Source: a virus. From it: a DNA stretch of 60,719 nt. Below the pieces are notes generated by a model. The model worked only from the letters and a program-made list of their open reading frames with translations, had not been told where the DNA came from and did not search any database. The translations under genes and the position numbers were made by a program. The stretch covers positions 1-60,719 of the IMG/VR virus record IMGVR_UViG_3300033143_005582; one strand, 5' to 3'. Numbering within the stretch: position 1 is the first letter of the stretch; each line of letters begins with the position of its first letter. This document shows, piece by piece, positions 3,002 through 41,052 of this stretch.

Positions 3002-4079
3002 TATTATATCAATTTTAGTCAATGGTATTAAATATACTGGTTGGACAGCAAATACAATTTTTAAAAGTTTAGAAACATTGAGTAATAGTTTTAATATTTC
3101 TTTAACTCCAAAATTTAAAAGTGATGGTTTTATAGATAATATCCCTATAGATGTTAATGATGAAATACAAGTTCTTATTGACAATGAACTCGTTATAAAT
3201 GGATTTATTGATTCTCGCAAAACTTCTTATAGTCATAATAAACATTCTATAAATATAACAGGAAGAAGTAGAATCTGTGATTTAGTAGATAGTGATTTAG
3301 TAGGAAATTTAAATTTAAATAAAGGTTATAGAGTATCAACTTTAATTCAAAAAATATTAAATAATTTAGGATTAACAAATATAAAAATATTTTTTGTAAA
3401 TGTTAGTGATGATATTTATGATGAAGATTTTAATTGTGGACGTGGAGAAAATGCATGGAAAGTTCTAAATGATTATTTACAAAAAAAAAGTATTTATGCT
3501 ATGACAGATGGTAATAGTGATATACTTTTATATAGAGGAAGTTTTGGGAATACTAATAAATCATTATTTCATACTAAAAATAAACCTGAATTGAACAATA
3601 TTTTAAGTGGAGTAGAAAATAAAAATAATATTGATAGATTTTATTCAATAAAAGTGATAAGTCAATTAGAGGCTAATATTTCAAGTGATAACTTTGAAAA
3701 TCAAACGGGAACTGCTTTTGATAAAAATATAAGAACTACAAGAAAAAGAGAAATTTTATCAAGAAATAGTTTAACAAGTAAAGAATGTTTAGATTTGGCA
3801 AAATTTGAAACTAATATTAGAAAAGCAAAAGGTTTTAGTTATGATTATACTATTTATGGATATAGACAAAGTGAAAATGGTTTATTATGGTCTACAAATT
3901 ATTTAATTGGAGTTAAAGATGATTATTTTTTTATTGATGATTATTTTTTAATAGAATCAGTTGAATTTACAAAAGATTTAAATGGAGGAAGTATAACTAA
4001 TTTAACTCTTGTTGATAAAAACTCTTATACTATACTTGAACCAAAAATAGAAAAAAGTACTAACCAATTAATTTTTTAA
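2994..4079 (+). CDS. Mu gpP-like baseplate hub protein
   Basis: This 361-residue protein matches the Mu gpP / phage late control D type hub (T4 gp27-like fold). The opening beta region is a short hub motif on 'LVNGIKYTGWTANTIFKSLE', followed by an 'INITGRSRICDLVDSD' signature at about residues 84-100 that is diagnostic of gpP-like hubs. The hub forms the central ring to which the spike attaches. It overlaps gpN by 8 nt, with an SD-like GGGGAGG just upstream of the start, and is followed directly by the gp45 spike gene. Confidence 0.85.
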   Translation: MNNIISILVNGIKYTGWTANTIFKSLETLSNSFNISLTPKFKSDGFIDNIPIDVNDEIQVLIDNELVINGFIDSRKTSYSHNKHSINITGRSRICDLVDSDLVGNLNLNKGYRVSTLIQKILNNLGLTNIKIFFVNVSDDIYDEDFNCGRGENAWKVLNDYLQKKSIYAMTDGNSDILLYRGSFGNTNKSLFHTKNKPELNNILSGVENKNNIDRFYSIKVISQLEANISSDNFENQTGTAFDKNIRTTRKREILSRNSLTSKECLDLAKFETNIRKAKGFSYDYTIYGYRQSENGLLWSTNYLIGVKDDYFFIDDYFLIESVEFTKDLNGGSITNLTLVDKNSYTILEPKIEKSTNQLIF

Positions 4080-15949: not shown

Positions 15950-16080
15950 ACATAATTAAATAAATAACATAATAAATTATTATACACTTTATATTTTTAT
16001 GTGTCAAATATTTTATTACACAATTAAATAAATAGCACAATAAAATATATTGTGTTATTTATTTTAATACACTTTATATT
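15950..16080. repeat. Repeats around the par promoter (operator/centromere candidate)
   Basis: A 27-nt element begins at 15950 (ACATAATTAAATAAATAACA...) and again at 16018 (ACACAATTAAATAAATAGCA...), 68 bp apart. The second copy forms an inverted repeat with 16048-16062: arms 16028-16042 and 16048-16062 match at 14 of 15 positions. The element ATACACTTTATAT also occurs twice (15982 and 16067). Three copies of a TATTRTGYTATTTATTT core therefore surround the promoter. The stretch 15939-16171 has no gene otherwise. This fits an RHH operator or parS. Confidence 0.65.
15979..16007 (-). promoter_or_regulatory. Consensus sigma70 promoter of the par operon
   Basis: On the minus strand TTGACA (16002-16007) and TATAAT (15979-15984) are separated by exactly 17 nt, a perfect consensus. 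The predicted start is near 15972. Two copies of a 27-nt repeat flank it, one over the start site and one upstream of the -35, so repression by the RHH protein is likely. Confidence 0.85.
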
Positions 16081-17720: not shown

Positions 17721-18482
17721 TTATTTACCTTTTTTATTATTAAAATTTTTATTATTTAAACATACTTTTAATTGAACTGTATTATGTTCTAAATTATTAA
17801 GTATTTTTTGCAAACTTTCAAGATTATCTTTTGTAATGTCATTAACAATAATCTCTTTTGTATTCATATCTAAAAGTTTAATATCTTTTTGTATTTTGCC
17901 AATTAAATCGTTTTTAAAATTTTCTGTATTATCTAAAATAATTTCACTATCATCATCAAGAAGTATAACTTGATTTTTTAATTTGTTTTTTTTGGAAAAA
18001 TCCTCATTTCCTTTATACAAAATCGCATTAGTTGCCAATTCATCAGCTATTTCATTATATTTATTTCCATTATGGGCTTTTACCCATTGGAATTTAACAT
18101 TATGAACTTGTCTATGATAATCTAAATCTTCCCATAATTCCTTATTTTTAACAGGTTTTCTGTTAGATGTTTTCCAGCCGTTTAATTTCCAGTTTTTAAT
18201 CCATTTAGTAATACCATTTTTAACATATTGACTATCGGTATATATTAAAATATCTTTTTTAATTCGTTGAGTATTATTTATAAATTGTAAAGCTTTAATA
18301 ACTGCCGTTAATTCCATTTTGTTATTAGTGCTTTCTTTTTCATAACCGCTTAAATGATAGTCATCTGATTTTTTTTGTGTTTGTGTATCATTGTAAATAA
18401 TTATAGCTCCCCAACCGCCTTCCCCGGGGTTTGGGTTACAACCTCCATCTGTGTATATTTCTATGTCTATTTCTTTATTCAT
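17721..18482 (-). CDS. rnhA: Ribonuclease H (type 1) with C-terminal extension
   Basis: This 253-residue protein has a full RNase HI domain in the first ~155 residues, with the acidic residues Asp12 (IYTDGG), Glu57 (KMELTA), Asp83 (IYTDSQYV) and Asp147 (ADELA), plus His137 (KAHNGN). It also has the Trp/Lys-rich handle (WIKNWKLNGWKTSNRKP). It would degrade RNA primers or R-loops at the replication origin. The last ~95 residues are an extra acidic helical region of unknown purpose. It overlaps recT by 8 nt. Confidence 0.93.
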   Translation of the reverse strand: MNKEIDIEIYTDGGCNPNPGEGGWGAIIIYNDTQTQKKSDDYHLSGYEKESTNNKMELTAVIKALQFINNTQRIKKDILIYTDSQYVKNGITKWIKNWKLNGWKTSNRKPVKNKELWEDLDYHRQVHNVKFQWVKAHNGNKYNEIADELATNAILYKGNEDFSKKNKLKNQVILLDDDSEIILDNTENFKNDLIGKIQKDIKLLDMNTKEIIVNDITKDNLESLQKILNNLEHNTVQLKVCLNNKNFNNKKGK

Positions 18483-19320
18483 TTTCAGTTTGATTGTTTA
18501 ATTCTTCTAATCCTGCGGTTTTGTTTAGTTTTTTGTTTAAATTAAAAAATTGATTATCAAAATCATCTAATTTTTTTGTTATACTCGCAAAATTTATTTT
18601 GCATATATTTCTTATAATTGTTTTTTTCATCATTTCAAATGGCCATTGTTTCCAAGTATAATCTTTCATTGTAGAAATATTTTTTGATTTATTTATTTTT
18701 TCAATAGACATAAAATTAGTTTGTTCACAAACTCTTTTTCCTTTTGTATAAGAAATTGTGCAATATGCTCCAATAATTGTATTTATTGTATTATTAAATA
18801 TATTTACTGGTTTATGACTTATATTTCTCATTCCGTTTACTAATTCTGTACTAAATTCATCTTCTTTTCTAACGAAACCTATATTATCAATATTAAAATC
18901 GGGATATTGTTGAGATACTTTATAAACATAACCACGCCAACCAATTTGAAGAGTTGCAGAATAACCCCCTATTTTATGTGTTCTTTTGCCATCTTTTTTT
19001 AAATACCAAGGTCTTGGAACCAAATAAGCATGTTCTCTTTTATCAATTGTTAAACCTAAATTTAAACAATCAACTACACTTTGTAATATTTGATTTTTTT
19101 TGCATTTTTGTAAATCTTTGCTTTTATAATATGCAGTTGAAACATCTTGAATTATTTTTTGAAATTCTTTACCGCTTTTAAAATATGGATTAAAAAATTT
19201 TCTAACATTAACTTTATTAAAATATTGCTTTACTGTATCATTTTCTTCCCAAGTTATTAATTGAACTTTTGTAGGTTCAATTGGTTTTTTTGGTGTCTTA
19301 ACCTTTAATTTTTCAGCCAT
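18475..19320 (-). CDS. recT: RecT-family single-strand annealing protein
   Basis: This 281-residue protein matches the RecT/Redbeta-type annealing family. 'CKKNQILQSVVDCLNLGLTIDKREHAYLVPRPW' at about 78-110 and 'SATLQIGWRGYVYKV' at about 125-140 are family signatures. It pairs complementary single strands after exonuclease resection. The matching exonuclease is encoded about 3.7 kb upstream instead of adjacent. A 55-residue RHH-like gene overlaps its start. Confidence 0.9.
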   Translation of the reverse strand: MAEKLKVKTPKKPIEPTKVQLITWEENDTVKQYFNKVNVRKFFNPYFKSGKEFQKIIQDVSTAYYKSKDLQKCKKNQILQSVVDCLNLGLTIDKREHAYLVPRPWYLKKDGKRTHKIGGYSATLQIGWRGYVYKVSQQYPDFNIDNIGFVRKEDEFSTELVNGMRNISHKPVNIFNNTINTIIGAYCTISYTKGKRVCEQTNFMSIEKINKSKNISTMKDYTWKQWPFEMMKKTIIRNICKINFASITKKLDDFDNQFFNLNKKLNKTAGLEELNNQTENE

Positions 19321-23057: not shown

Positions 23058-24320
23058 TTAAACAAACATACTAACATCATAATCAATATCTTTGCTTATT
23101 TTCGCTTTGCCTCTTGTAGTCTCGTTTGTAGTTTTAAAGTTATTCATAAATCTCAAACCTTTTCCGTGTCTTTTCACGTGTGCAGTAAAATTATCAAAAT
23201 TATAACCAAAAATCCTTTCTTTAAAGAATATATCAATAAACTTAGCTTCGTTCTTTTTAATAGCTTTTTCTGCGTGTAATTTATCTTCTCTATTTTGTTT
23301 ATCAATTTTTAACTCATCGCTTAAATTTGGATACTTTTGTTGTAGTTCGGGTGTCATTTCAATAATACCTTTGTTTTCAATACCAAACTTTTTTTGACAT
23401 TCAATTAAAAATTCTTCCATGTGTTGCGACATTTTTTGTTTGTTTAATTTTGTATCTTTATCATTCTCATAGTTAGGTTTTGGTTCGCTACAATTTTGTA
23501 GCCTTTCTTCCCAACGATTTAAAGAACTTATGAAAAGTGTCTTTAAAGTTTCAAAAATAGGATAAATCCAAAGTTTAATATCATACCAACCACAAAGTTT
23601 TTCAAAGTTCTTTTGTGTTAAATTTTGGCATAATTCAACAGCACGACCTTTGTAGAAATCATTATCAAAATCTTTTTCATACGGAACTGCACAACCTATT
23701 ATTCCGTATTTGAAAGAATTATCTATTTTATTTTGTATTACATTTTGATATTGATTTTGATTTATGTATTTAAACATAACTTCTTGATTTTCTTCATCAA
23801 CTCCCCAATTATTTTGTTTAAATTTGAAAAGATTAGTAGTTTTTGCCTCACAAACTGATTGCTCGTCCTTTTTTGCAAAAATTGGATTACCGAGTCTTTT
23901 AATTAAAGTTTCAGAGTTAAATTCATAATCTTTTTTAAGTTTAATAAAAATATCAGGTGTATAACTTGCCAATTTATGAAATTCAGGACATTTTATTAAT
24001 TCTTGCGGTTGGCAAGTTGCCTCTAAATAATCGCCACATTTAAAATTAATATATTTAGCAACAAACTTTTCCATTTCGTGTCCGAACAAACTTAAACTTT
24101 CGGGAAATTTTGAAGGTAGTGCCTTTCCTTTTTTATAATTATAAAGTCCAAAAGGACTCATAAATAATTTATCTTTTATAAATTCATCAGCCGAACCACT
24201 CATTGCTTGTCTTATTTCTTCTTCGGTGCATTCGGATTTAATAACTGTTGATATTTCACTTGCACCAACATATTTTAAGCGTTCTTTCAGCCACCTTTCT
24301 TTTTGTTCTTCATTTTGCAT
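23058..24320 (-). CDS. YqaJ-type (lambda exonuclease-like) recombination exonuclease
   Basis: This 420-residue nuclease resects double-stranded ends for RecT. The start 'ERLKYVGASEISTVI' is the YqaJ hallmark. 'LFGHEMEKFVAKYI' holds the conserved Glu, and the active site is 'SYTPDIFI' (Asp) and 'QSVCEAKTT' (E-x-K), then 'YINQNQYQNVIQNKI'. It is longer than lambda Exo, with ~150 extra C-terminal residues. The ORF can be read from 24371, but the ATG at 24320 has a GAGGG SD and only a short overlap with the upstream gene, so I use it. Confidence 0.85.
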   Translation of the reverse strand: MQNEEQKERWLKERLKYVGASEISTVIKSECTEEEIRQAMSGSADEFIKDKLFMSPFGLYNYKKGKALPSKFPESLSLFGHEMEKFVAKYINFKCGDYLEATCQPQELIKCPEFHKLASYTPDIFIKLKKDYEFNSETLIKRLGNPIFAKKDEQSVCEAKTTNLFKFKQNNWGVDEENQEVMFKYINQNQYQNVIQNKIDNSFKYGIIGCAVPYEKDFDNDFYKGRAVELCQNLTQKNFEKLCGWYDIKLWIYPIFETLKTLFISSLNRWEERLQNCSEPKPNYENDKDTKLNKQKMSQHMEEFLIECQKKFGIENKGIIEMTPELQQKYPNLSDELKIDKQNREDKLHAEKAIKKNEAKFIDIFFKERIFGYNFDNFTAHVKRHGKGLRFMNNFKTTNETTRGKAKISKDIDYDVSMFV

Positions 24321-28997: not shown

Positions 28998-29285
28998 ATG
29001 ATTAAAAAAATTTTAAAAAAAATAAAATCTTTTTTCATAAGTCTTTTTAAAGGATTAAAAATAAAATCTTTTTATAAAAAAATAAAACCAAAATCAAAAA
29101 TATTAAAAGATATAAAAAGATTACAGGAAAATAAAATCAAAAAAGAAAAAGAAATCAAAGAATTACGAGTCTTTTTAAGAAAAGATAAGACTAATAATTG
29201 GCAAAACTTTTTAAAGACAAGAAAAAACTTAAATTTGAAAAGAAAATATATTCATACAAAATTCAATACTTATTTTATAGTATGA
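28998..29285 (+). CDS. Lysine-rich hypothetical protein
   Basis: This 95-residue, extremely basic protein starts with an amphipathic helix (IKKILKKIKSFFISLFKGLKIKSF), followed by a coiled segment (LQENKIKKEKEIKELRVFL). The start may associate with membrane or nucleic acid. It is the first gene behind the rightward early promoter. Unknown family. Confidence 0.5.
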   Translation: MIKKILKKIKSFFISLFKGLKIKSFYKKIKPKSKILKDIKRLQENKIKKEKEIKELRVFLRKDKTNNWQNFLKTRKNLNLKRKYIHTKFNTYFIV

Positions 29286-29344
29286 ATAAATTAAAAGAAA
29301 TTTCCATATGTTCACATAGGTTTTTAATAAATAAAGGGTTTAAA

Positions 29345-29998
29345 ATGGAAATAAATAATCAAAATATAGGTAAAATAAAATTAATTTCTCTAAAAAAGAC
29401 TAAAAAAGACTTTTTGTTTTTTAAAGAAATATTTGGTAATAAAGATATAATGAAAACTATATCATTATATGATCGCAAGGTTTCAAAGAAAAATTTTAGA
29501 AAAGATTTTGATTTAAGAAATTGTACTCATAAAAAGTATAATTTAGGGAGTTATAAAATAACTAATGATAAAAATGATATTATAGGTATAACCTCCTTAC
29601 TTTTGTTAAAAACAAATAAACAAAATCAACCAACAATTTTAGAATTTGAATATTTTATAAGTCCAAAATTTCAATCAAAAAGAATAGGGAGTGATACGGC
29701 AAAATTCCTTATAGACTATGCTTTTAAAAATTTCCTCAAAGTGAAAAGGATATATGCAACAGCTTTAACTGACAATTTTCCATCTCAAATCATCATGCAC
29801 AGATTAGGTTTTAAATATATTGGAAAAAAACAAAGAAAAGATGGTGGACTAGTTAATTTAAGATATATTACAAAATTTAGATTTTATTTAAACAAAATCA
29901 AACCTTTCAAAAGAAAAACCAATTATTATATTAAATTGATTAAAAAACTAAATAAAAAGAAATCAAAAATAAACTTATATAATACTCAAGATTTATAG
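29345..29998 (+). CDS. GNAT-family N-acetyltransferase (RimJ/RimL-like)
   Basis: This 217-residue protein has the GNAT layout of RimJ/RimL-type enzymes: 'KIKLISLKKTKKDFLFFKEIF' at the start, 'LGSYKITNDKNDIIGITSLLLL' (beta4 acceptor strand), 'FEYFISPKFQSKRIGSDTAKFLIDYAF' (acetyl-CoA loop, here Q-x-x-R-I-G) and 'VKRIYATALTDNFPSQIIMHRLGFKYIG' (C-terminal signature N-x-x-S...GF). It would acetylate a host or phage protein or small molecule. In-frame codons extend upstream to 29198, but the ATG at 29345 has AAGGG upstream. It converges with, and overlaps by 13 bp, the LysR gene. Confidence 0.8.
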   Translation: MEINNQNIGKIKLISLKKTKKDFLFFKEIFGNKDIMKTISLYDRKVSKKNFRKDFDLRNCTHKKYNLGSYKITNDKNDIIGITSLLLLKTNKQNQPTILEFEYFISPKFQSKRIGSDTAKFLIDYAFKNFLKVKRIYATALTDNFPSQIIMHRLGFKYIGKKQRKDGGLVNLRYITKFRFYLNKIKPFKRKTNYYIKLIKKLNKKKSKINLYNTQDL

Positions 29999-34072: not shown

Positions 34073-35336
34073 AACTATATTATCATCTTTATTAAAGATG
34101 AAAAAAGAAAAAACAAAAGTTAAAACAATATTATTATCCTCATTAAAGCCAAACCCAAAAAATCCTCGTTCAATTACTGACGAAAATCTTGAAAAACTTT
34201 GTAAGTCTATTAAGAATTTTAATAGAATGCTAACATTAAGACCGATGATTGTTGACGAAAACAATATCGTACTTGGTGGTAATATGCGTTTGCAAGCATT
34301 AAAAAAGCTTGGTTATAAAGAAATTCCTGAAAATTGGGTTAAAAAAACTTTGGATTTAACCGAAGAAGAAAAAAGACAATTTTTAATAAAAGATAATATT
34401 GAGTACGGCGATTGGGAAGAGAAAATTTTAAAAGATAACTATGATATTTTTGAGTTAAAAGAATTTAATATTGATATAGATATTGAAATGGATTTTGGTG
34501 GTGATGACAATGAAGAAGAACCAAAAGAAGATGAATGCCCAGCGTTAAAAAAAGAAAGTATTGTTAAAATGGGTGATTTGTGGTTGTTGGGAAAACATCG
34601 CCTTCGTTGTGGTGATTCTACAATTATTTCACATATTGATGATTTAATAAATAACGAGAAAATCAATTTAGTTTTTTGTGATCCTCCGTATGGAATAAAT
34701 TATAGTGGTGGAAGAACTCAAGTTGTTAATAAAAAAGAATATGGAAAATTAAAAAACGATAATTTAAAAGGAAAAGAATTGGCAAATTTGATTTGTAATA
34801 TTTTTAATTTTGGTCAAAAAGAAACTTATATATGTGTATCTCCAATTAAAATAAAACCATTTTTAGATTTTATATATGATAATAAAAAAGAAGTTAATTC
34901 AGTTATTGTTTGGGATAAAGGAAATGCTGGATTAGGTTATATGCCTTATAGACGTCAATGTGAATTTATATTATATGTTAGAGATAAGCCATTTACTAAA
35001 AAAGACAAAAGCGATTTTGATTTATGGCAAATTAATCGGGATAATTCAAAAGATTATGTTCACGGAACACAAAAACCAGTTGGAGTCCCAGCAAGAGCTA
35101 TAAAAAATTCTTCTAAAAAGAATGATATAGTTTTGGATTTGTTTGGAGGTTCGGGTTCAACACTTATAGCATGCGAACAATTAAATCGTAAATGTTATAT
35201 GATGGAGTTGGACGAGATATATTGCCAAGTAATTTTGGATAGATACCTTAATTTCAAACAAAACAAAGGCAAAGATGTATTTTTATTAAAAGATGGGAAA
35301 AAGATACTTTATAAAGAAATTGTAAAAAAAATATAA
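34047..35336 (+). CDS. ParB-like nuclease/DNA methyltransferase fusion
   Basis: This 429-residue fusion has a ParB/sulfiredoxin-like domain at ~23-125 ('LKPNPKNPRSI', 'IVLGGNMRLQALKKLGY', a G-x-x-R-x-x-A core). A beta-class N6-adenine/N4-cytosine methyltransferase follows: catalytic 'FCDPPYGINY' (Asp212-Tyr215) and the SAM-binding 'VLDLFGGSGST' near the end. It would methylate phage DNA, probably for protection from restriction. The first 17 residues are tandemly duplicated (see repeat at 34047), giving two possible starts, 34047 and 34098. Confidence 0.88.
   Translation: MTKEKTKVKTILSSLLKMKKEKTKVKTILLSSLKPNPKNPRSITDENLEKLCKSIKNFNRMLTLRPMIVDENNIVLGGNMRLQALKKLGYKEIPENWVKKTLDLTEEEKRQFLIKDNIEYGDWEEKILKDNYDIFELKEFNIDIDIEMDFGGDDNEEEPKEDECPALKKESIVKMGDLWLLGKHRLRCGDSTIISHIDDLINNEKINLVFCDPPYGINYSGGRTQVVNKKEYGKLKNDNLKGKELANLICNIFNFGQKETYICVSPIKIKPFLDFIYDNKKEVNSVIVWDKGNAGLGYMPYRRQCEFILYVRDKPFTKKDKSDFDLWQINRDNSKDYVHGTQKPVGVPARAIKNSSKKNDIVLDLFGGSGSTLIACEQLNRKCYMMELDEIYCQVILDRYLNFKQNKGKDVFLLKDGKKILYKEIVKKI
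34050..34145 (+). repeat. 51-nt tandem duplication at the 5' end of the methyltransferase gene
   Basis: Residues KEKTKVKTI occur at 3-11 and 20-28, in a 17-residue (51-nt) tandem repeat with substitutions in the later third. The duplication copies the start codon, so translation can begin at either Met. It looks like a slippage or recombination event. Confidence 0.75.
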
Positions 35337-35358
35337 GAAATATTCCCAAAATATTCCT

Positions 35359-35512
35359 ACTTGACAAATGCTTGACAAAATATAAAGATTTTTATTGCAA
35401 AAATCCCGAACTCCGCATTAATTCCTAATCTCTGTGCTTGACGGGTACTTGATTTCTACTTGATGAGTACTTGCTAATTACTTGCTAATTACTTGCTAAT
35501 TACTTGCTGTTT
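35359..35512. repeat. 11-bp direct-repeat array (centromere or origin candidate)
   Basis: Seven tandem units start at 35436, 35447, 35458, 35469, 35480, 35491 and 35502, all exactly 11 bp apart, with consensus RCTTGNNNNNN; the middle three are identical (ACTTGCTAATT). Two more units at 35359 and 35370 (ACTTGACAAAT, GCTTGACAAAA) lie in the same phase. The phase of one unit per helical turn means all sites face one side of DNA. Such arrays bind RHH-type partition proteins (11-bp repeats of plasmid R1 parC) or initiators. Confidence 0.65.
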
Positions 35513-35522
35513 ACATAATTTG

Positions 35523-35588
35523 AAAAAAACACCAGTTGAAAACACTGATAAACATTGAGTTTTATTAAAAAGCAACTGGTGTTTTTTT
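35523..35588. terminator. Bidirectional terminator-like hairpin plus a third arm copy
   Basis: Arms AAAAAAACACCAGTTG (35523-35538) and CAACTGGTGTTTTTTT (35573-35588) are perfect complements, with A-run and T-run on both sides, so it could terminate transcripts from either strand. The left arm occurs again at 35609-35625 in the same orientation, giving two partners for one arm. Confidence 0.65.
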
Positions 35589-35650
35589 TAAATAATATCA
35601 GTTAAAAGAAAAAAAACACCAGTTGATTCTTATTTGATAAATTGGCGACT

Positions 35651-35743
35651 GACATCAATGTCATTTGCAAAATACCCTTTATTAATCAATGTTTCTTTAT
35701 TTGATGGTTATTTGATTTTGTGAGGGACATTGATGTCCCTCAC
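35651..35743. promoter_or_regulatory. Two GACAT-NN-ATGTC palindromes 75 bp apart
   Basis: GACATCAATGTC at 35651-35662 and GACATTGATGTC at 35726-35737 are reverse complements of each other; both have identical arms and a TG/CA centre. The second lies inside a perfect 24-bp palindrome (35720-35743, arms GTGAGGGACAT and ATGTCCCTCAC). These look like dimer-binding sites, not terminators. Confidence 0.6.
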
Positions 35744-35918
35744 TAAATTTTACTTGCTAATTTACTTGCAAACGCTAATGCAAGTTAAAATTAAATCCAT
35801 ATTTTAAGCGGGTTTTGGGCAGTTTAACTTGCTTTTCATCTCTTTTTATGTGTTTTATGAGTATCTAAATGTTTTGTATGTGTTAGACGAGTAGCATATA
35901 GCAAAATCAACTTTATAA

Positions 35919-35938
35919 TATGCTAATTTTTTAGCATA
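35919..35938. promoter_or_regulatory. Operator-like inverted repeat upstream of the HTH gene
   Basis: TATGCTAA (35919-35926) and TTAGCATA (35931-35938) are perfect arms around TTTT. Half-sites recur nearby (GTAGCATATAGC at about 35891, AATATGC at about 35948). They lie just upstream of the promoter for the HTH protein, so autoregulation is likely. Confidence 0.55.
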
Positions 35939-35961
35939 AAGTAGACAATATGCAAAAAAAC

Positions 35962-35989
35962 TTGACAATTAAATAAAAACTAATATTAT
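35962..35989 (+). promoter_or_regulatory. Promoter of the HTH-gene operon
   Basis: TTGACA (35962-35967) and TATTAT (35984-35989) are separated by 16 nt. Start is expected near 35996, about 34 nt before the ATG at 36030. Confidence 0.7.
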
Positions 35990-36029
35990 ATTTATATAAA
36001 ACGTGGTATACAATAATATTATATTAGTT

Positions 36030-36212
36030 ATGAAAGGAAAAGAATTTAAAGAAATACGATTAAGATTAGGTTTATCAATGCCAAAACTCGGTAAGGAAAT
36101 AGGTAAATCATCTAATCAGATATTTCTATATGAAAAAGATAAAGCTAAAATCCCATTATCAATTGAAAGATTAATGAGAAATTTTGATATTAATAATGTT
36201 AAAAAGAAATGA
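36030..36212 (+). CDS. XRE-type helix-turn-helix regulator
   Basis: This 60-residue protein is a minimal Cro/CI-type HTH: 'KEFKEIRLRLGLSMPKLGKEIGKSSNQIFLYEKDKAKIPLSIERLM' has the typical 'lk.lR..lglsq..lA..lg.s...is..E.g...' pattern. A longer in-frame reading begins with GTG at 36003, but the ATG at 36030 starts at the normal point for the family. It may repress its own promoter. It could be a lysogeny/lysis regulator of the phage. Confidence 0.78.
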   Translation: MKGKEFKEIRLRLGLSMPKLGKEIGKSSNQIFLYEKDKAKIPLSIERLMRNFDINNVKKK

Positions 36213-36766
36213 ACGAATATAGAAAAATCTTTAGAGAAATACAAGGATACAAACTATTTCCATCTTTTGAAAAAAAAGATAGTGAAAAAGCTATAAAATT
36301 AATAGAAAAATATTCTTGGGCTGTTCCTAATAAAAAAGCTATAAAAGAAATATGTAAATTTGGTGCTATTATTGAAATTGGAGCAGGTGGAGGATATTGG
36401 GCAAGTTTAATCAAAAAAGCTGGTGGTAATATTATTGCTTATGATAATTTATCAACTCATCAATTAAAAAATACAAAATATTGGTTTAAAGTAAAATATG
36501 GAAGTTTTGAGAAAATAAAACAACATAAAAATAGAATATTATTTTTATGTTTTCCTCCATGCAAAAGCAATATGGCTTTTGATTGTTTAAATAATTATAC
36601 AGGAGAATATTTTTTATATATTGGAGAGGAATTAGAAGGATGTAAAGGAAATGAAAGTTTTTTTAATGAAATTTTTGAAAATTGGAATTTAATAAAAACT
36701 ATTGATATACCTTCTTATGGTGGAGTTTTTGATAGTTTATTTATTTATAAAAGAAAAGTTAAATAG
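36209..36766 (+). CDS. SAM-dependent methyltransferase-like protein
   Basis: This 185-residue protein carries a SAM-binding loop 'FGAIIEIGAGGGYWASLIKKAGGNIIAYD' at about 51-80 (motif I E-x-G-x-G-x-G and motif II acidic D). A cysteine-rich 'ILFLCFPPCKSN' follows near 111-122. Similar short proteins in phages are annotated as methyltransferases of unknown substrate. The start overlaps the HTH gene by 4 nt. Confidence 0.65.
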   Translation: MNEYRKIFREIQGYKLFPSFEKKDSEKAIKLIEKYSWAVPNKKAIKEICKFGAIIEIGAGGGYWASLIKKAGGNIIAYDNLSTHQLKNTKYWFKVKYGSFEKIKQHKNRILFLCFPPCKSNMAFDCLNNYTGEYFLYIGEELEGCKGNESFFNEIFENWNLIKTIDIPSYGGVFDSLFIYKRKVK

Positions 36767-36768
36767 AA

Positions 36769-36978
36769 ATGTACCAAAAACAAACTGACAAATTAAAATC
36801 TTTTTATACTCACCACTGGGTATTTTTTGACAAAAAAGGGCAAATCATAGAAAAATGTCCATGCACCATAAAAGAAAAAAACTCAAGTGCTGAAAGTTAT
36901 AAAAATGAAATATGTGCAGATAGTTTTGAAAAAGTAAAGAATACTCTTGAAAAAGGGATGCAAGTGGGTTTTTCTTAA
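36769..36978 (+). CDS. Hypothetical protein
   Basis: This 69-residue protein starts 'YQKQTDKLKSFYTHHWVFFDKKGQIIEKCPCTIKEKNSSAE', with a CPC motif and paired His residues, possibly metal-binding. It follows the methyltransferase-like gene after 2 nt. No family recognised. Confidence 0.45.
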   Translation: MYQKQTDKLKSFYTHHWVFFDKKGQIIEKCPCTIKEKNSSAESYKNEICADSFEKVKNTLEKGMQVGFS

Positions 36979-37027
36979 TGTCGGGAAAAATCCTAATTAT
37001 TAAATATTAATTAAATGAAAGGACGAT

Positions 37028-37450
37028 ATGAAGAAAAAGACATTAGATGAATTTTTAAAAGAAATTAATAGAGAAGAAAGCGAAATTAAAACAATATACT
37101 CTTATGAAGAGTGTAAATTAGCAGTTCAACAAGACGGCTATATTTTGAGATATGTCAAAGAACAAACAGAAGAAATTTGTAAATTAGCAGTTCAACAAAA
37201 CGGCGATAGTTTGAGATATGTCAAAGAACAAACAGAAGAAATTTGTAAATTAGCAGTTCAACAAAACGGCGATAGTTTGCAATATGTCAAAGAACAAACA
37301 GAAGAAATTTGTAAATTAGCTGTTCAACAAGACGGCGATAGTTTGAGATATGTCAATAAAAATATTTTTGTTAAATATGGTTCTTGCGAGAAACAAAAGC
37401 GAATTAAAGAATTAGAGAAAGAATTGAAAGAACTAAAACAATCTAAATAA
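37028..37450 (+). CDS. DUF4116-like repeat protein
   Basis: This 140-residue protein has about four tandem repeats of 22 residues: EICKLAVQQNGDSLRYVKEQ repeated with small changes, starting at about residue 28. The pattern is that of DUF4116 helical repeats found in phages, amoeba and giant viruses. The repeats are nearly identical at DNA level (66 nt), so they arose recently or are kept uniform. N- and C-terminal ends are charged helices. Its stop codon lies in the first of the intercistronic hairpins. Confidence 0.75.
   Translation: MKKKTLDEFLKEINREESEIKTIYSYEECKLAVQQDGYILRYVKEQTEEICKLAVQQNGDSLRYVKEQTEEICKLAVQQNGDSLQYVKEQTEEICKLAVQQDGDSLRYVNKNIFVKYGSCEKQKRIKELEKELKELKQSK
37152..37355 (+). 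repeat. 66-nt tandem repeats within the DUF4116-like gene
   Basis: Three units of 66 nt with only a few changes encode EICKLAVQQNGDSL-type repeats. A diverged fourth unit precedes them (37112-37151). High identity suggests recent expansion by recombination or slippage and likely length variation between related phages. Confidence 0.75.
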
Positions 37451-37465
37451 CATTTAGTTATTTAG
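37443..37465 (+). other. Intercistronic hairpin 1
   Basis: Arms CTAAATAAC and GTTATTTAG form a 9-bp stem around the loop ATTTA. The DUF4116-like stop codon is in the 5' arm. It is the first of five related elements spaced along 37.4-38.4 kb. Confidence 0.75.
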
Positions 37466-37491
37466 AGATAATAATTAAAAAGAAAAGTGAT

Positions 37492-37707
37492 ATGATAGAT
37501 ATAAACACTTATGATTATGATATAATTAAGTTGACCCTCTTAAATCCCAAAAAAGTAAAAGATGAGTTGATGAAAAAATTAGAAGATGAAAAAGACCCAT
37601 TTTACAATGAAGGATGCGAGGAAAATAGTGAAGAAGCAGAAAAAAAGAAAAAGGCTTATGCTGATATAGAAACAAAATTACAAGAATTAGAATTTATTAA
37701 TGTTTAA
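37492..37707 (+). CDS. Hypothetical acidic protein
   Basis: This 71-residue acidic helical protein (NPKKVKDELMKKLEDEKDPFYNEG ... KKKAYADIETKLQELEF) lies between hairpins 1 and 2. No family known. It belongs to a chain of tiny genes each flanked by related hairpins. Confidence 0.5.
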   Translation: MIDINTYDYDIIKLTLLNPKKVKDELMKKLEDEKDPFYNEGCEENSEEAEKKKKAYADIETKLQELEFINV

Positions 37708-37713
37708 GAAAAT

Positions 37714-37736
37714 CTAAATAGAATTTATTTATTTAG
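37714..37736 (+). other. Intercistronic hairpin 2
   Basis: Arms CTAAATAGA and TTTATTTAG pair with one G-U and one A-U in place of the A-U and C-G pairs of hairpin 1; the loop ATTTA is identical. The paired changes keep the stem. Confidence 0.7.
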
Positions 37737-37765
37737 AATAAATAATAATTAAATATAAGGTAAAA

Positions 37766-38056
37766 ATGTTAAAAATTGAAGAATTATTAAATGAATTAGA
37801 GAATAGTTATAGGATAAATAGAGAAATTATTGTTGTTAATAAAGAAATAGATACATTAAAAATAAAAAAAGAAAGTATAAAAAAGGCAATGGAAATTACA
37901 GATAGTAAAAAAGAACGAATGAGAAAAGATATTCTTGTTGTTGAGGGAGTAATAAAAGATAGAGAAGAAAATATAATAAATAAGTTAACTTTTTATGAAG
38001 ATGAGAAATTAGAAGAAATAAGAACTAAAATTATAAAGCTAAAACAATCTAAATAA
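37766..38056 (+). CDS. Coiled-coil hypothetical protein
   Basis: This 96-residue protein is nearly all coiled coil (IEELLNELENSYRINREIIVVN, then IKKAMEITDSKKERMRKDILV). It has an AAGGT SD and its stop codon lies in the 5' arm of hairpin 3. No function recognised. Confidence 0.5.
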   Translation: MLKIEELLNELENSYRINREIIVVNKEIDTLKIKKESIKKAMEITDSKKERMRKDILVVEGVIKDREENIINKLTFYEDEKLEEIRTKIIKLKQSK

Positions 38057-38072
38057 CAATTAAGTTATTTAG
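38049..38072 (+). other. Intercistronic hairpin 3
   Basis: Arms CTAAATAAC and GTTATTTAG around the loop AATTAA. The stop codon of the upstream gene is in the 5' arm, and an SD (AAAGGGAAA) with ATG follows about 20 nt later. Confidence 0.72.
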
Positions 38073-38091
38073 AGAGTAATAAAGGGAAACA

Positions 38092-38280
38092 ATGGAACAA
38101 AAAACAAATACCATAAAAAAACTTTTCTTTAATTACTTCTGCTTCAAAAAAGATAAAATTGAAGAAGAAAATATGGAAGAGCTCTTAAGAGAAGGGGAGA
38201 AAAGACGAGAAGCTTTTGTACAAAGCTTAATAAAAAAAGAATTTGAACAAAAAGATTTTCAAACCCTAAATAACAATTAA
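38092..38280 (+). CDS. Hypothetical protein
   Basis: This 62-residue protein is charged and helical (TIKKLFFNYFCFKKDKIEEEN, then LLREGEKRREAFVQSLIKKEF). It lies between hairpins 3 and 4, with its stop codon at the loop of hairpin 4. No family recognised. Confidence 0.45.
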   Translation: MEQKTNTIKKLFFNYFCFKKDKIEEENMEELLREGEKRREAFVQSLIKKEFEQKDFQTLNNN

Positions 38281-38289
38281 GTTGTTTAG
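38266..38289 (+). other. Intercistronic hairpin 4
   Basis: Arms CTAAATAAC and GTTGTTTAG pair with one U-G wobble around the loop AATTAA, almost identical to hairpin 3. The wobble retains the stem. Confidence 0.7.
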
Positions 38290-38310
38290 AGAATAAATAA
38301 AGAGAATTAA

Positions 38311-38367
38311 ATGTTAGGAGATGCTTTAGATAAAAAAAATAAAGGAACTTATAAAAGAATTAAATAA
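38311..38367 (+). CDS. Possible 18-residue peptide between hairpins 4 and 5
   Basis: An 18-codon ORF (starting MLGDALDKKNKGTYKRIK) starts about 20 nt after hairpin 4, like the larger genes of the array, and ends just before hairpin 5. The regular spacing suggests it is a real gene, though very short. Confidence 0.4.
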   Translation: MLGDALDKKNKGTYKRIK

Positions 38368-38372
38368 ACAAT

Positions 38373-38397
38373 CTAAATAGGAACTTATCCTATTTAG
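38373..38397 (+). other. Intercistronic hairpin 5
   Basis: Arms CTAAATAGGA and TCCTATTTAG form a 10-bp stem around ACTTA. Compared with hairpin 1, inner pairs changed on both sides (AAC/GTT to AGGA/TCCT), so the structure is kept by compensation. It is followed by an SD and the 38425 gene. Confidence 0.75.
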
Positions 38398-38424
38398 AAT
38401 ATTAACAAACAATAAAGGGAAATG

Positions 38425-38676
38425 ATGAGTATAAAAACATTTGAAGAGTTAGAGAAAAAATTAGAAATATACGGATTTAGACATAATGATAGTTTACAAA
38501 ACCCAGCTTGTGTTGATGACAGCGGATTAAATTTAATTGAAAAAGGAAACGGCGAAGCTACTTTAAGATTGCATACAGACTTTGGTAAATTTTGGAGTTT
38601 CCCTAAGGCGAAGTATCATTTAATTTTTAATCTCATAAACTCAATTAAAGCATTAAAGGAGTGTGAAGATGAATGA
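38425..38676 (+). CDS. Hypothetical protein
   Basis: This ~83-residue protein has a beta-rich pattern (FRHNDSLQNPACVDDSGLNLIEKGNGEATLRLHTDFGKFWSF). The start is doubled (ATGATG at 38422/38425) after a strong SD. It resembles small phage proteins of unknown role. Its stop overlaps the next membrane protein start. Confidence 0.5.
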   Translation: MSIKTFEELEKKLEIYGFRHNDSLQNPACVDDSGLNLIEKGNGEATLRLHTDFGKFWSFPKAKYHLIFNLINSIKALKECEDE

Positions 38677-38824
38677 AGAAGTATGTTTTTTAGCACAAAG
38701 TATTTTATTAAATTTGTATACATTTACATTATTATTAATTGCAATAAATTTATGTTTATGGATTTTTATAAAACAAATCAAAATAGCAAGGAAATTATTA
38801 AACAAACCAAAAGAGGATAAATAA
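38669..38824 (+). CDS. Small membrane protein
   Basis: A 51-residue ORF overlaps the preceding gene by 8 nt. It has an acidic start, one hydrophobic segment at ~12-32 (LLNLYTFTLLLIAINLCLWIF) and a basic end, so it is predicted as a single-span inner-membrane protein with the C-terminus inside. It begins a run of small membrane proteins. Confidence 0.55.
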   Translation: MNEEVCFLAQSILLNLYTFTLLLIAINLCLWIFIKQIKIARKLLNKPKEDK

Positions 38825-38825
38825 T

Positions 38826-39221
38826 ATGACAATGTATACAAGCTTAAATTTGAACAAGGCTTTAAAAGAGGCTGGGTGTGAGTTAGAGAGTGAGATGAAA
38901 TGGGTTGGAAATAAATTAAAAAATGCTGATGTTGACGGATATAGGAATAATTGGGCAGATGATATTTACCCAGCTTACGATATTCTATGGGATATATGTG
39001 TAAGGTTTCCAATTGAATTTTTTGGACAAAAATATATTCTTGAAACAATCAACACAATAAATTCTTTTAATAATTTACCAACACAATTAAAGACAATAGC
39101 GTATGAATATTATCCTGAAAGGATTTTAAGAATGCTACAACAAAACAAACCACAGAAAGAAATTGAGGACTATATTCGGGAGAACACAATTTTTAATAAA
39201 AAAAATAAAAAGGGAAAATGA
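38826..39221 (+). CDS. Hypothetical protein
   Basis: This 131-residue soluble protein contains 'EAGCELESEMKWVGNKLKNADVDGYRNNWADDIYPAYDILWDICVRFPIEFFG'. It looks like an alpha-helical phage protein of unknown family; similar length and composition occur in other phage accessory regions. It lies among small membrane proteins. Coupled by overlap to the next start. Confidence 0.5.
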   Translation: MTMYTSLNLNKALKEAGCELESEMKWVGNKLKNADVDGYRNNWADDIYPAYDILWDICVRFPIEFFGQKYILETINTINSFNNLPTQLKTIAYEYYPERILRMLQQNKPQKEIEDYIRENTIFNKKNKKGK

Positions 39222-39400
39222 GAAAAGAAGACAAAGAATTTACAAAAAAATTCCAAAAGGAAAGTAAAGACTATTTAGAAAATTTACACAAAGAACCAAA
39301 AGAGAAAGATGGAAGCTTTTTTGCAATTGTAATTATAGGGTTATCGCTTATAGTAATATTATTTTTTGGGTTTTATCAAAATATTAAAATTAAATTATGA
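39218..39400 (+). CDS. Small membrane protein
   Basis: This 60-residue protein has a charged N-terminal half (KKFQKESKDYLENLHKEPKEKDG) and one C-terminal hydrophobic segment (FFAIVIIGLSLIVILFFGFY). Predicted single-span, N-in. ATGA coupling on both sides. Confidence 0.5.
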   Translation: MRKEDKEFTKKFQKESKDYLENLHKEPKEKDGSFFAIVIIGLSLIVILFFGFYQNIKIKL

Positions 39401-39582
39401 ACGCAAAAAAGAAAATAAGAATATCTTTAATATTAAAAACTTATAAACAATCAATATTTGATTTATTGATAACACCAATATTACAATTATTAGTGTTTAT
39501 TCCTCATACACTTTTTGTGATTTATGCCCTAATTTTAGTAGCAATTGGAAAAAATAATTATATAAAAAAAGATGTTGAGTAA
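39397..39582 (+). CDS. Small membrane protein
   Basis: This 61-residue protein has a basic start and one long hydrophobic segment (SIFDLLITPILQLLVFIPHTLFVIYALILVAIG) that may form one or two spans. Coupled to the preceding gene. Function unknown. Confidence 0.5.
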   Translation: MNAKKKIRISLILKTYKQSIFDLLITPILQLLVFIPHTLFVIYALILVAIGKNNYIKKDVE

Positions 39583-39745
39583 TTTAATGGTTTGTGTTAT
39601 AATAACAGTATGTATTATATGTGGTTTTCTTATTTACAATGACAAAGTTTATGATGATAAATCTGACCGTAATTTCAATAAAATATTTGGAAGTATTTTG
39701 ATTGGAGCAGGGAATTTGATAATATTATATTTTATTAATAATTGA
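39572..39745 (+). CDS. Small two-span membrane protein
   Basis: A 57-residue ORF overlaps the preceding gene by 11 nt. Two hydrophobic segments lie at ~4-21 (NLMVCVIITVCIICGFLI) and ~41-55 (SILIGAGNLIILYF) around a polar loop. Function unknown. Confidence 0.5.
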   Translation: MLSNLMVCVIITVCIICGFLIYNDKVYDDKSDRNFNKIFGSILIGAGNLIILYFINN

Positions 39746-39752
39746 AAAAAAA

Positions 39753-39953
39753 ATGAAAGAGAAAAGAAAAGAAGTTTTAATCAAAAAATTAAAAATTATT
39801 TCTGTGAAAGCTTCAATGATTATTGTATTATTATTTATTTTTTCAAGTTTTCATAAACTTGAAGGATATTCTTTAGCAATGGGTATAGTAATCGGTTATG
39901 CCATAGAACAAACCGAAGATTTAATGGAAAAATATTTAAATAAAGAAATATGA
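39753..39953 (+). CDS. Small membrane protein
   Basis: This 66-residue protein has a basic N-terminus and two hydrophobic segments (VKASMIIVLLFIFSSFHKL and GYSLAMGIVIGYAIEQ). Coupled by overlap to the next gene. Function unknown. Confidence 0.5.
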   Translation: MKEKRKEVLIKKLKIISVKASMIIVLLFIFSSFHKLEGYSLAMGIVIGYAIEQTEDLMEKYLNKEI

Positions 39954-40195
39954 AAAAACTATCAAAAATTTATTTAAAAAATTTAGAATCTCCAATAACA
40001 AACTTTTTATGTGGAATATTAGGTTTAATAATACTATCTTTTGCTCTTACTGCATTAGTATTATTCTTTGCTTTTTTAGAAAAATACCCTCGGCAAAGCT
40101 GTTTATATTTCTTCGGCGGTTGGGGTCTTTTAATATTAATAATTATTTTAATAAAGATTTTTATAGACTCTTATAAAGAATATAAAGAACAATAA
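39950..40195 (+). CDS. Two-span membrane protein
   Basis: This 81-residue protein has hydrophobic segments at ~18-41 and ~52-68 (FLCGILGLIILSFALTALVL, YFFGGWGLLILIIILIKIF). It starts in the stop codon of the upstream gene. It shares a 'K.YLKNL' start and a 'DSYKEYKEQ' end with the next gene, suggesting duplication. Confidence 0.55.
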   Translation: MKKLSKIYLKNLESPITNFLCGILGLIILSFALTALVLFFAFLEKYPRQSCLYFFGGWGLLILIIILIKIFIDSYKEYKEQ

Positions 40196-40202
40196 GGAAA
40201 AA

Positions 40203-40577
40203 ATGAAAAAATATTTAAAAATGTACTTTAAAAACTTATATAATGCTTTAAAATTAATTATTAAACATATTCCACAATTTTTATTAATAATATTTTTATT
40301 ACTACCAGCTATAACACCATTAATTTTAATTGAAAGAATAGCATATAAAAATAAAGAACTTATATCTTTAAAATGTATGATGTTATGGTTGTTATGGTGT
40401 TTAGTATATGGATTTTTAATAGTTAGTGCTTTAAATACTTATGAAGAATGGAAATCAATAAAAGAAAATAATAAAAGAAAAAACAATTCTTCTAAAGGCA
40501 AAGATTTAGCAAATGATAAAAATAGAGAATTAAAAAAAAGAAAGAATAGATATAGAAAAATAAAACAAAAAAAATGA
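40203..40577 (+). CDS. Two-span membrane protein with basic tail
   Basis: This 124-residue protein has two hydrophobic segments (~21-41 and ~58-76: FLLIIFLLLPAITPLILIE, WLLWCLVYGFLIVSA) and a ~40-residue lysine/arginine-rich tail that may face the cytoplasm. Its start MKKYLKMYFKNL resembles that of the preceding gene. Confidence 0.55.
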   Translation: MKKYLKMYFKNLYNALKLIIKHIPQFLLIIFLLLPAITPLILIERIAYKNKELISLKCMMLWLLWCLVYGFLIVSALNTYEEWKSIKENNKRKNNSSKGKDLANDKNRELKKRKNRYRKIKQKK

Positions 40578-40811
40578 AAAGTAAAAAGTTAAAAGTTAAA
40601 TAGACACGAAAGAAGAAAAGCAGAAAAACACTTAGGAAAATGTAAATTAATTTTTAAACATAAACAAACAAAGAAAAAAATAATTGTTAACTATACATTT
40701 AAAACAAAGCCAACAATTAATGAGATGTTAAGAGCAATAAAAATTGACAAAAAGCCAGTTGATAAGGCGGATTATGATTATAAGATTGTACCGATAAGGG
40801 GGTGTAAATGA
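40574..40811 (+). pseudogene. Frameshifted small ORF (RHERRK-type phage protein)
   Basis: An ATG at 40574 begins MKSKKLKVK then hits TAG at 40601. In the +1 frame, from 40599, an open stretch reads RHERRKAEKHLGKCKLIFKH ... DYKIVPIRGCK and stops at 40809-40811, overlapping the next ATG. The joined product starts MKSKKLKVNRHERRK, typical of short phage proteins. A one-base error or real frameshift in the A-rich run is likely. Other frames are noncoding here. Confidence 0.55.
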
Positions 40812-40987
40812 AAAAATCTATTGCAAATAGAATTACCACAAAGAATAAAGGGATTACTACAAAGAAATTTTATGATAATAAAGGAAATTGGTTAAAGACA
40901 ACGCATACTTTTATTTATCAAAGAACTATTTGTGAAAAGATTTATAAATATTTAAAATCAAATCTCGTCCATTTTAGATTAAGTTAA
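40808..40987 (+). CDS. Hypothetical basic protein
   Basis: A 59-residue ORF starts in the stop codon of the frameshifted gene. It is basic (KKSIANRITTKNKGITTKKFYDNKGNWLKTTHTFIYQRTICEKIYKYL), with a possible small beta domain. No function assigned. Confidence 0.45.
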   Translation: MKKSIANRITTKNKGITTKKFYDNKGNWLKTTHTFIYQRTICEKIYKYLKSNLVHFRLS

Positions 40988-41052
40988 AAAAACAATAGAC
41001 TTTTAAATCAATATATGAAATAAATAAACTATAATTAATAATTTGTTTGTTT

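Follow-up and report, generated by a model that had tools for sequence, protein, structure and literature searches.

Five related hairpins in consecutive gene gaps of an AT-rich tailed phage, likely acting as RNA

Comparison with described phage repeats

The closest known kind of element to the one described here is the start-associated inverted repeat of actinobacterial phages, as in cluster EG of the Microbacterium phages and the ESAS of cluster K. Cluster EG phages carry an 18-bp inverted repeat in 8-10 copies located 14-22 bp ahead of starts (PMC7302621). For the ESAS of the cluster K mycobacteriophages, the authors reported little evidence that the repeats pair in the mRNA and favoured DNA-binding proteins (PMC3203893). 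Here we analysed a complete IMG/VR virus entry of 60,719 bases, the whole of which is the window. The genome has a GC content of ~25% and carries terminase, portal, tail and replication genes, indicating a tailed phage that is unclassified and very AT-rich. It contains five hairpins (n = 5) of 9-11 bp whose outer arms read (T)CTAAATA/TATTTAG(A). They span 37442-38398 and lie one per gap in five consecutive gaps separating small genes on the + strand.

As in cluster EG, several intergenic copies of one inverted repeat precede start codons, here at 18-28 nt, which is a slightly longer range, while the EG sequence differs (GATCAACCNNGGTTGATC), has a fixed 2-nt spacer and lacks the inner-pair change and the spacer variation seen in this phage (PMC7302621). 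Like the present set, the cluster K SAS/ESAS are imperfect inverted repeats just 5' of ribosome-binding sites, and they accompany a limited number of non-structural genes whose upstream gaps are unusually long. The ESAS spacer is variable (4-13 bp) and its arms, unlike those here, are 17 bp long, and the conserved 13-bp SAS at the ribosome-binding site, GGGATAGGAGCCC, was not found after our hairpins (PMC3203893). The 17-bp dyad of the cluster O mycobacteriophages also recurs within one phage genome as a short palindrome whose arms are invariant, but it differs in having >30 copies, about one-third of which are inside genes, a loose tie to starts and a fixed 3-bp spacer (PMC4351075). The present element has an EG/ESAS-like layout, is set apart from these repeats by its paired variation and variable spacing, and was previously unlisted. 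The sequence-only reading knew of no described family with this sequence; this stands at the sequence level, where the Rfam 15 covariance models gave zero matches in 36800-39000 at E up to 1, and does not extend to the kind of element: inverted repeats that recur shortly ahead of small non-structural genes are known from the EG and cluster K phages (PMC7302621, PMC3203893).

We also compared the hairpins with the PeSLs of T4-type phages (named in PMC4503421), each of which consists of an early promoter plus a stem-loop terminator. Both are stem-loops repeated between the small genes of a variable region, and the PeSLs have been proposed to aid module shuffling. In contrast to the PeSLs, our hairpins show neither a promoter excess nor a U run, and, judged from the genes seen, this is not a T4-type phage. 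We counted 42 promoter-like sites in 35300-41000, compared with 41.9 in shuffles, and none of these was consistently beside the hairpins, in agreement with the first reading, which had seen no promoter with them. Because no promoter exceeds chance, the hairpins are not PeSLs by definition. None of the five (0/5) was called a terminator on the + strand, where the downstream bases are A-rich, and the lack of a U run after the stems on the coding strand led us to reject intrinsic terminators as well. The attC sites of integrons have the core boxes R' (GTTRRRY) and R'' (RYYYAAC), both of which are broken by the arms AAATAAC and GTTATTT, and a wide, REP-like dispersal was rejected for an element confined to this 1 kb in one orientation.

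Hairpin positions and neighbouring genes

The common stem is TCTAAATA/TATTTAGA, whose inner 2-3 pairs differ among the copies, and the loops (ATTTA, AATTAA or ACTTA) are 5 or 6 nt long; on re-check, all five positions, arms, inner pairs and loops were as first described. Hairpin 1 (37442-37466, + strand, TCTAAATAAC-ATTTA-GTTATTTAGA, 10 bp) contains the stop TAA (37448-37450) of the + strand ORF 37028-37450, whose 140-aa product has DUF4116 repeats (PF13475, E 3.6e-26) and the C-terminus KELKQSK. The next ATG (37492) is 25 nt downstream and opens a 71-aa ORF (37492-37707, +) with no function assigned. The stop of this ORF is 5 nt 5' of the stem of hairpin 2 (37713-37737, +, TCTAAATAGA-ATTTA-TTTATTTAGA, 10 bp with one G-U), and ATG 37766 follows 28 nt downstream as the start of a 96-aa ORF (37766-38056, +) that ends in KLKQSK and has no function assigned. 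Its stop TAA (38054-38056) is inside hairpin 3 (38048-38073, +, TCTAAATAAC-AATTAA-GTTATTTAGA, 10 bp), which is followed after 18 nt by ATG 38092 of a 62-aa ORF (38092-38280, +), also with no function assigned. In hairpin 4 (38266-38289, +, CTAAATAAC-AATTAA-GTTGTTTAG, 9 bp with one U-G), the outermost pair of the common stem is absent and the loop contains the stop TAA (38278-38280) of that ORF; 21 nt downstream, ATG 38311 begins an 18-codon ORF (38311-38367, +) that is doubtful as a gene. Hairpin 5 (38372-38398, +, TCTAAATAGGA-ACTTA-TCCTATTTAGA, 11 bp) begins 4 nt past the stop of this short ORF, and ATG 38422/38425 lies 23-26 nt downstream, where an 84-aa ORF with no function assigned begins (38422-38676, +).

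These positions refine what had been read from the letters. Several hairpins were said to hold the upstream stop codon, and it is indeed inside copies 1, 3 and 4, and 4-5 nt ahead of copies 2 and 5. A start codon does follow each hairpin, at 18-28 nt rather than at the 20-25 nt first given, while the SD claimed for every copy is not clear ahead of the gene after hairpin 1, and the link of the tiny-gene chain between hairpins 4 and 5 amounts to the 18-codon ORF. AAACAA precedes hairpins 1, 3 and 5, so that the left arm doubles as the Ser-Lys-stop codons ending two of the genes (KQSK). At copy 5 the same ending (KELIKELNKQSK) lies one frame off the 18-codon ORF, and eight consecutive A separate the two frames; the other frame in this region (38311-38380) reads IKKIKELIKELNKQSK before a stop, ending as in two neighbours. 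This A run may reflect slippage or decay, or else an error in sequencing the homopolymer. The DUF4116 gene contains 66-nt tandem units (37112-37356) that are 94-96% identical, a sign of recent expansion.

The genes at ~36-48 kb are small, on the + strand and mostly overlapping or nearly touching, as are those from the ORF 38422-38676 onward. The hairpin-bearing gaps measure 41, 58, 35, 30 and 54 nt, compared with ≤18 nt at most same-strand junctions, and the other long junctions of the phage are mostly without unusual folding. The gene chain is headed by a well-matched sigma-70-like site (TTGACA-16-TATTAT, 35962-35989), upstream of which we found a terminator-like hairpin (35720-35743). This promoter-like site after a terminator-like hairpin makes one long transcript plausible. 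The junction preceding the array also has a hairpin (36966-36993), which contains the stop of the ORF 36769-36978; its stem, GGGTTTTTCTT/GGGAAAAATCC with three G-U, is unrelated and its pair probability in context is 0.19-0.42, and we rejected it as a sixth member. The longest perfect hairpin in the window, 17 bp with one G-U at 16026-16064, is in a 233-nt gap between - strand genes.

The presence of the set exceeds chance, and the set is real. The pattern CTAAATA..TATTTAG was observed 5 times in the window versus 0.05 expected by chance, in a count that misses hairpin 4 with its TGTTTAG arm; four of the matches are the short-loop hairpins and the remaining one is an intragenic match at 24023 whose spacer is long. 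The short-loop version of the arms has no further occurrence in the 60.7 kb record, being limited to ~1 kb and a single orientation. Within a span of ≤1.5 kb there are four hairpins with an exactly complementary common 7-nt arm, or five including the U-G copy, whereas the maximum was three in 60 dinucleotide shuffles of the window and two in 129 other viral/genome loci (1.1 Mb). A covariance model from the five copies, proposed along with the first reading, found exactly five in this phage at 45-58 bits, scores that follow by construction because the model was built from these five; the next + strand match in the 60.7 kb record scored 21.6 bits.

Pairing evidence and the readings as RNA or DNA

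Across the five copies, 49/50 pair cells are kept (98%). Six of the 10 pairs are invariant, both bases change in pair 9 (A-U/G-C/G-U) and in pair 10 (C-G/A-U/G-C), and a third pair varies by one U-G. With 2/10 pairs covarying and the covariation score reached by 14/500 shuffles, the covariation among these five related copies is real but modest. The original statement that compensatory change shows selection on RNA structure was too strong on both of these counts, and also because the symmetry of a palindrome can come from DNA template switching. The structure itself is supported by the strand sense of the G-U pairs, the two double-changed pairs, the variable spacing and the stop/start positions. 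Each of the two wobbles (copies 2 and 4) pairs as G-U on the + strand and reads as A-C on the - strand, so these two stems are much weaker there (-6.0 on + versus -3.6 kcal/mol on - for copy 2, and -6.8 versus -3.1 kcal/mol for copy 4). Hairpins 1, 3 and 5 fold equally well on the - strand.

All five hairpins are predicted to be stable in local folding of the + strand, with pair probabilities of 0.75-0.99. Folding with flanks gave -9.2 kcal/mol for hairpin 1 (z -2.8; mean pair probability 0.94-0.96), -11.2 kcal/mol for hairpin 3 (z -5.0), -8.3 kcal/mol for hairpin 4 (z -2.9; pair probability 0.89-0.91 on + and 0.72-0.74 on -) and -12.7 kcal/mol for hairpin 5 (z -4.5), and the weakest copy was hairpin 2 (-6.8 kcal/mol, z -1.7; 0.75-0.89 on + and 0.32-0.35 on -).

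The distances between the conserved arms, 9, 9, 10, 10 and 11 nt, suit RNA better than a rigid dimer site. The repeats might instead be DNA operators, bound as palindromes by a phage repressor or silencer that acts as a dimer, which may also be the case in clusters K, EG and O; perfect 8-bp arms do make a dyad, and the cluster K authors prefer DNA-binding proteins for their repeats (PMC3203893). We regard this reading as distinctly unlikely, as the arm spacing takes three lengths where the EG and O palindromes have fixed spacers (PMC7302621, PMC4351075), the inner bases change in a paired manner that includes G-U, and all copies are at stop/start junctions of one operon with no promoter association beyond chance.

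Hairpin 5, alone among the five, has a terminator-like score on the - strand, and hairpins elsewhere that are AT-rich and carry these arms resemble terminators: one locus (L041) has two of them, at 3919 and 6028, bidirectional and flanked by A and T runs. The copies might be weak antisense terminators of - strand transcription, or roleless palindromes kept symmetric by template-switch repair. This appears extremely improbable to us, given that the coding strand is without a U run, that there are no convincing - strand genes nearby and that both imperfections preserve pairing on the + strand. From the pairing pattern and the predicted folds, the hairpins likely act as RNA in the mRNA.

Origin of the copies and proposed role

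By their inner pairs and following bases, the copies fall into two sub-types: copies 1, 3 and 4 have AAC/GTT and then GAGA, and copies 2 and 5 have G as the first inner base and then GAATA. These sub-types, together with the common preceding sequence, suggest that the set spread by duplication, which would have carried the hairpins along with small genes. Direct repeats of 42-64 nt with 72-81% identity extend past the stem, and the genome has a RecT-like gene (18475-19320). These repeats, the shared AAACAA, the two sub-types and the RecT-like gene would all fit cassette linkers, whose main purpose or source would be recombination, aided by a RecT-like annealing protein, in which small genes are duplicated, swapped and deleted. 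On the other hand, paralogy is not evident among the five ORFs, the sequences upstream of the stem are no more alike than other gene ends are, except perhaps for copies 1 and 3, and no relative and no shuffling were found, leaving linkers a very improbable account, though such an origin can be compatible with an RNA function. A related idea, which we find quite improbable, is that phage-specific, start-proximal hairpins mark tiny-gene cassettes and act as recombination linkers for gaining genes; if true, a gene inserted between two hairpins would automatically become an independently processed cistron.

We found no near relative with this region, whether we searched by the element, by DNA similarity or by protein (terminase, portal, capsid and two local ones). 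Relatives were recovered by terminase only, at 48-55% identity and 38-44% GC, and the element was absent from these records, which are partial. Genome matches to the element pattern (L129-L133) are single copies and do not look related. The IMG/VR arm matches, among the matches listed, are mostly single and without inner pairing, and, since the same pattern had served to pick them, their E-values under the model are biased. Thirteen IMG/VR contigs each have one start-proximal palindrome whose outer arms are those of the hairpins (consensus GATCTAAATATTCCTAGAACTATTTAGA). It stands 7 or 18 nt ahead of the start of one family of ~327-aa proteins and often follows (A)ATAAATA, a sequence like that of a T4-type late promoter. 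The arms common to this palindrome and the phage hairpins may be a coincidence. Elsewhere in the phage genome, 29986-30963 (-) encodes a full LysR-type regulator with HTH and substrate domains, which is unusual for a phage, and the adjoining ORF 29198-29998 is GNAT-like as judged by eye.

We give about an even chance to the proposal that the hairpins are duplicated intercistronic mRNA elements that separate tiny cistrons via processing or stability. Here we infer that the hairpins are transcribed and act as RNA. One polycistronic phage mRNA would contain five copies of one duplicated intercistronic hairpin, each stem folding at the stop of one tiny gene; the 18-28 nt left ahead of the next start would form a leader that is rich in AU and mostly unpaired. 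The leader sequences read AAAGGGAAA or AATTAAA... The stem would protect the 3' end of the upstream cistron, and host endonucleases would cleave in the AU-rich leader to leave a new 5' end with its own ribosome-binding site. Each tiny gene may thus become an independent message unit, replacing the stop-start overlaps found in the rest of the operon. T7 early mRNA, in which several intercistronic RNase III processing hairpins separate the early cistrons, similarly has several such hairpins in one transcript, but the T7 stems are much longer than those here. With 9-11 pairs, most of them A-U, the present stems would be short substrates for RNase III and only a moderate obstacle to exonucleases.

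Single hairpin operators occur in other phages, and the outer arms identical in all copies (six invariant pairs), the short loops and the position of every copy 18-28 nt ahead of a start codon could also point to RNA operators, at which a phage or host protein would bind the hairpins and coordinate translation of the five downstream genes. We consider this possible but unlikely: the loops differ in sequence, the start codons lie outside the hairpins and their predicted access is not reduced by them, and no RNA-binding regulator was identified. When the stems were forbidden in the fold, the start region was no more open, and the ribosome-binding sites are not covered; an SD-sequestering thermoswitch or riboswitch was rejected on the same result.

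Start-associated inverted repeats are known in several actinobacterial phages without an assigned function, and the objection to an RNA role in cluster K was that pairing support was lacking. Stems with paired variation inside one genome offer a clean test case for such a role, be it in cistron separation or in stability, and the present set extends the phenomenon to an unrelated AT-rich phage.
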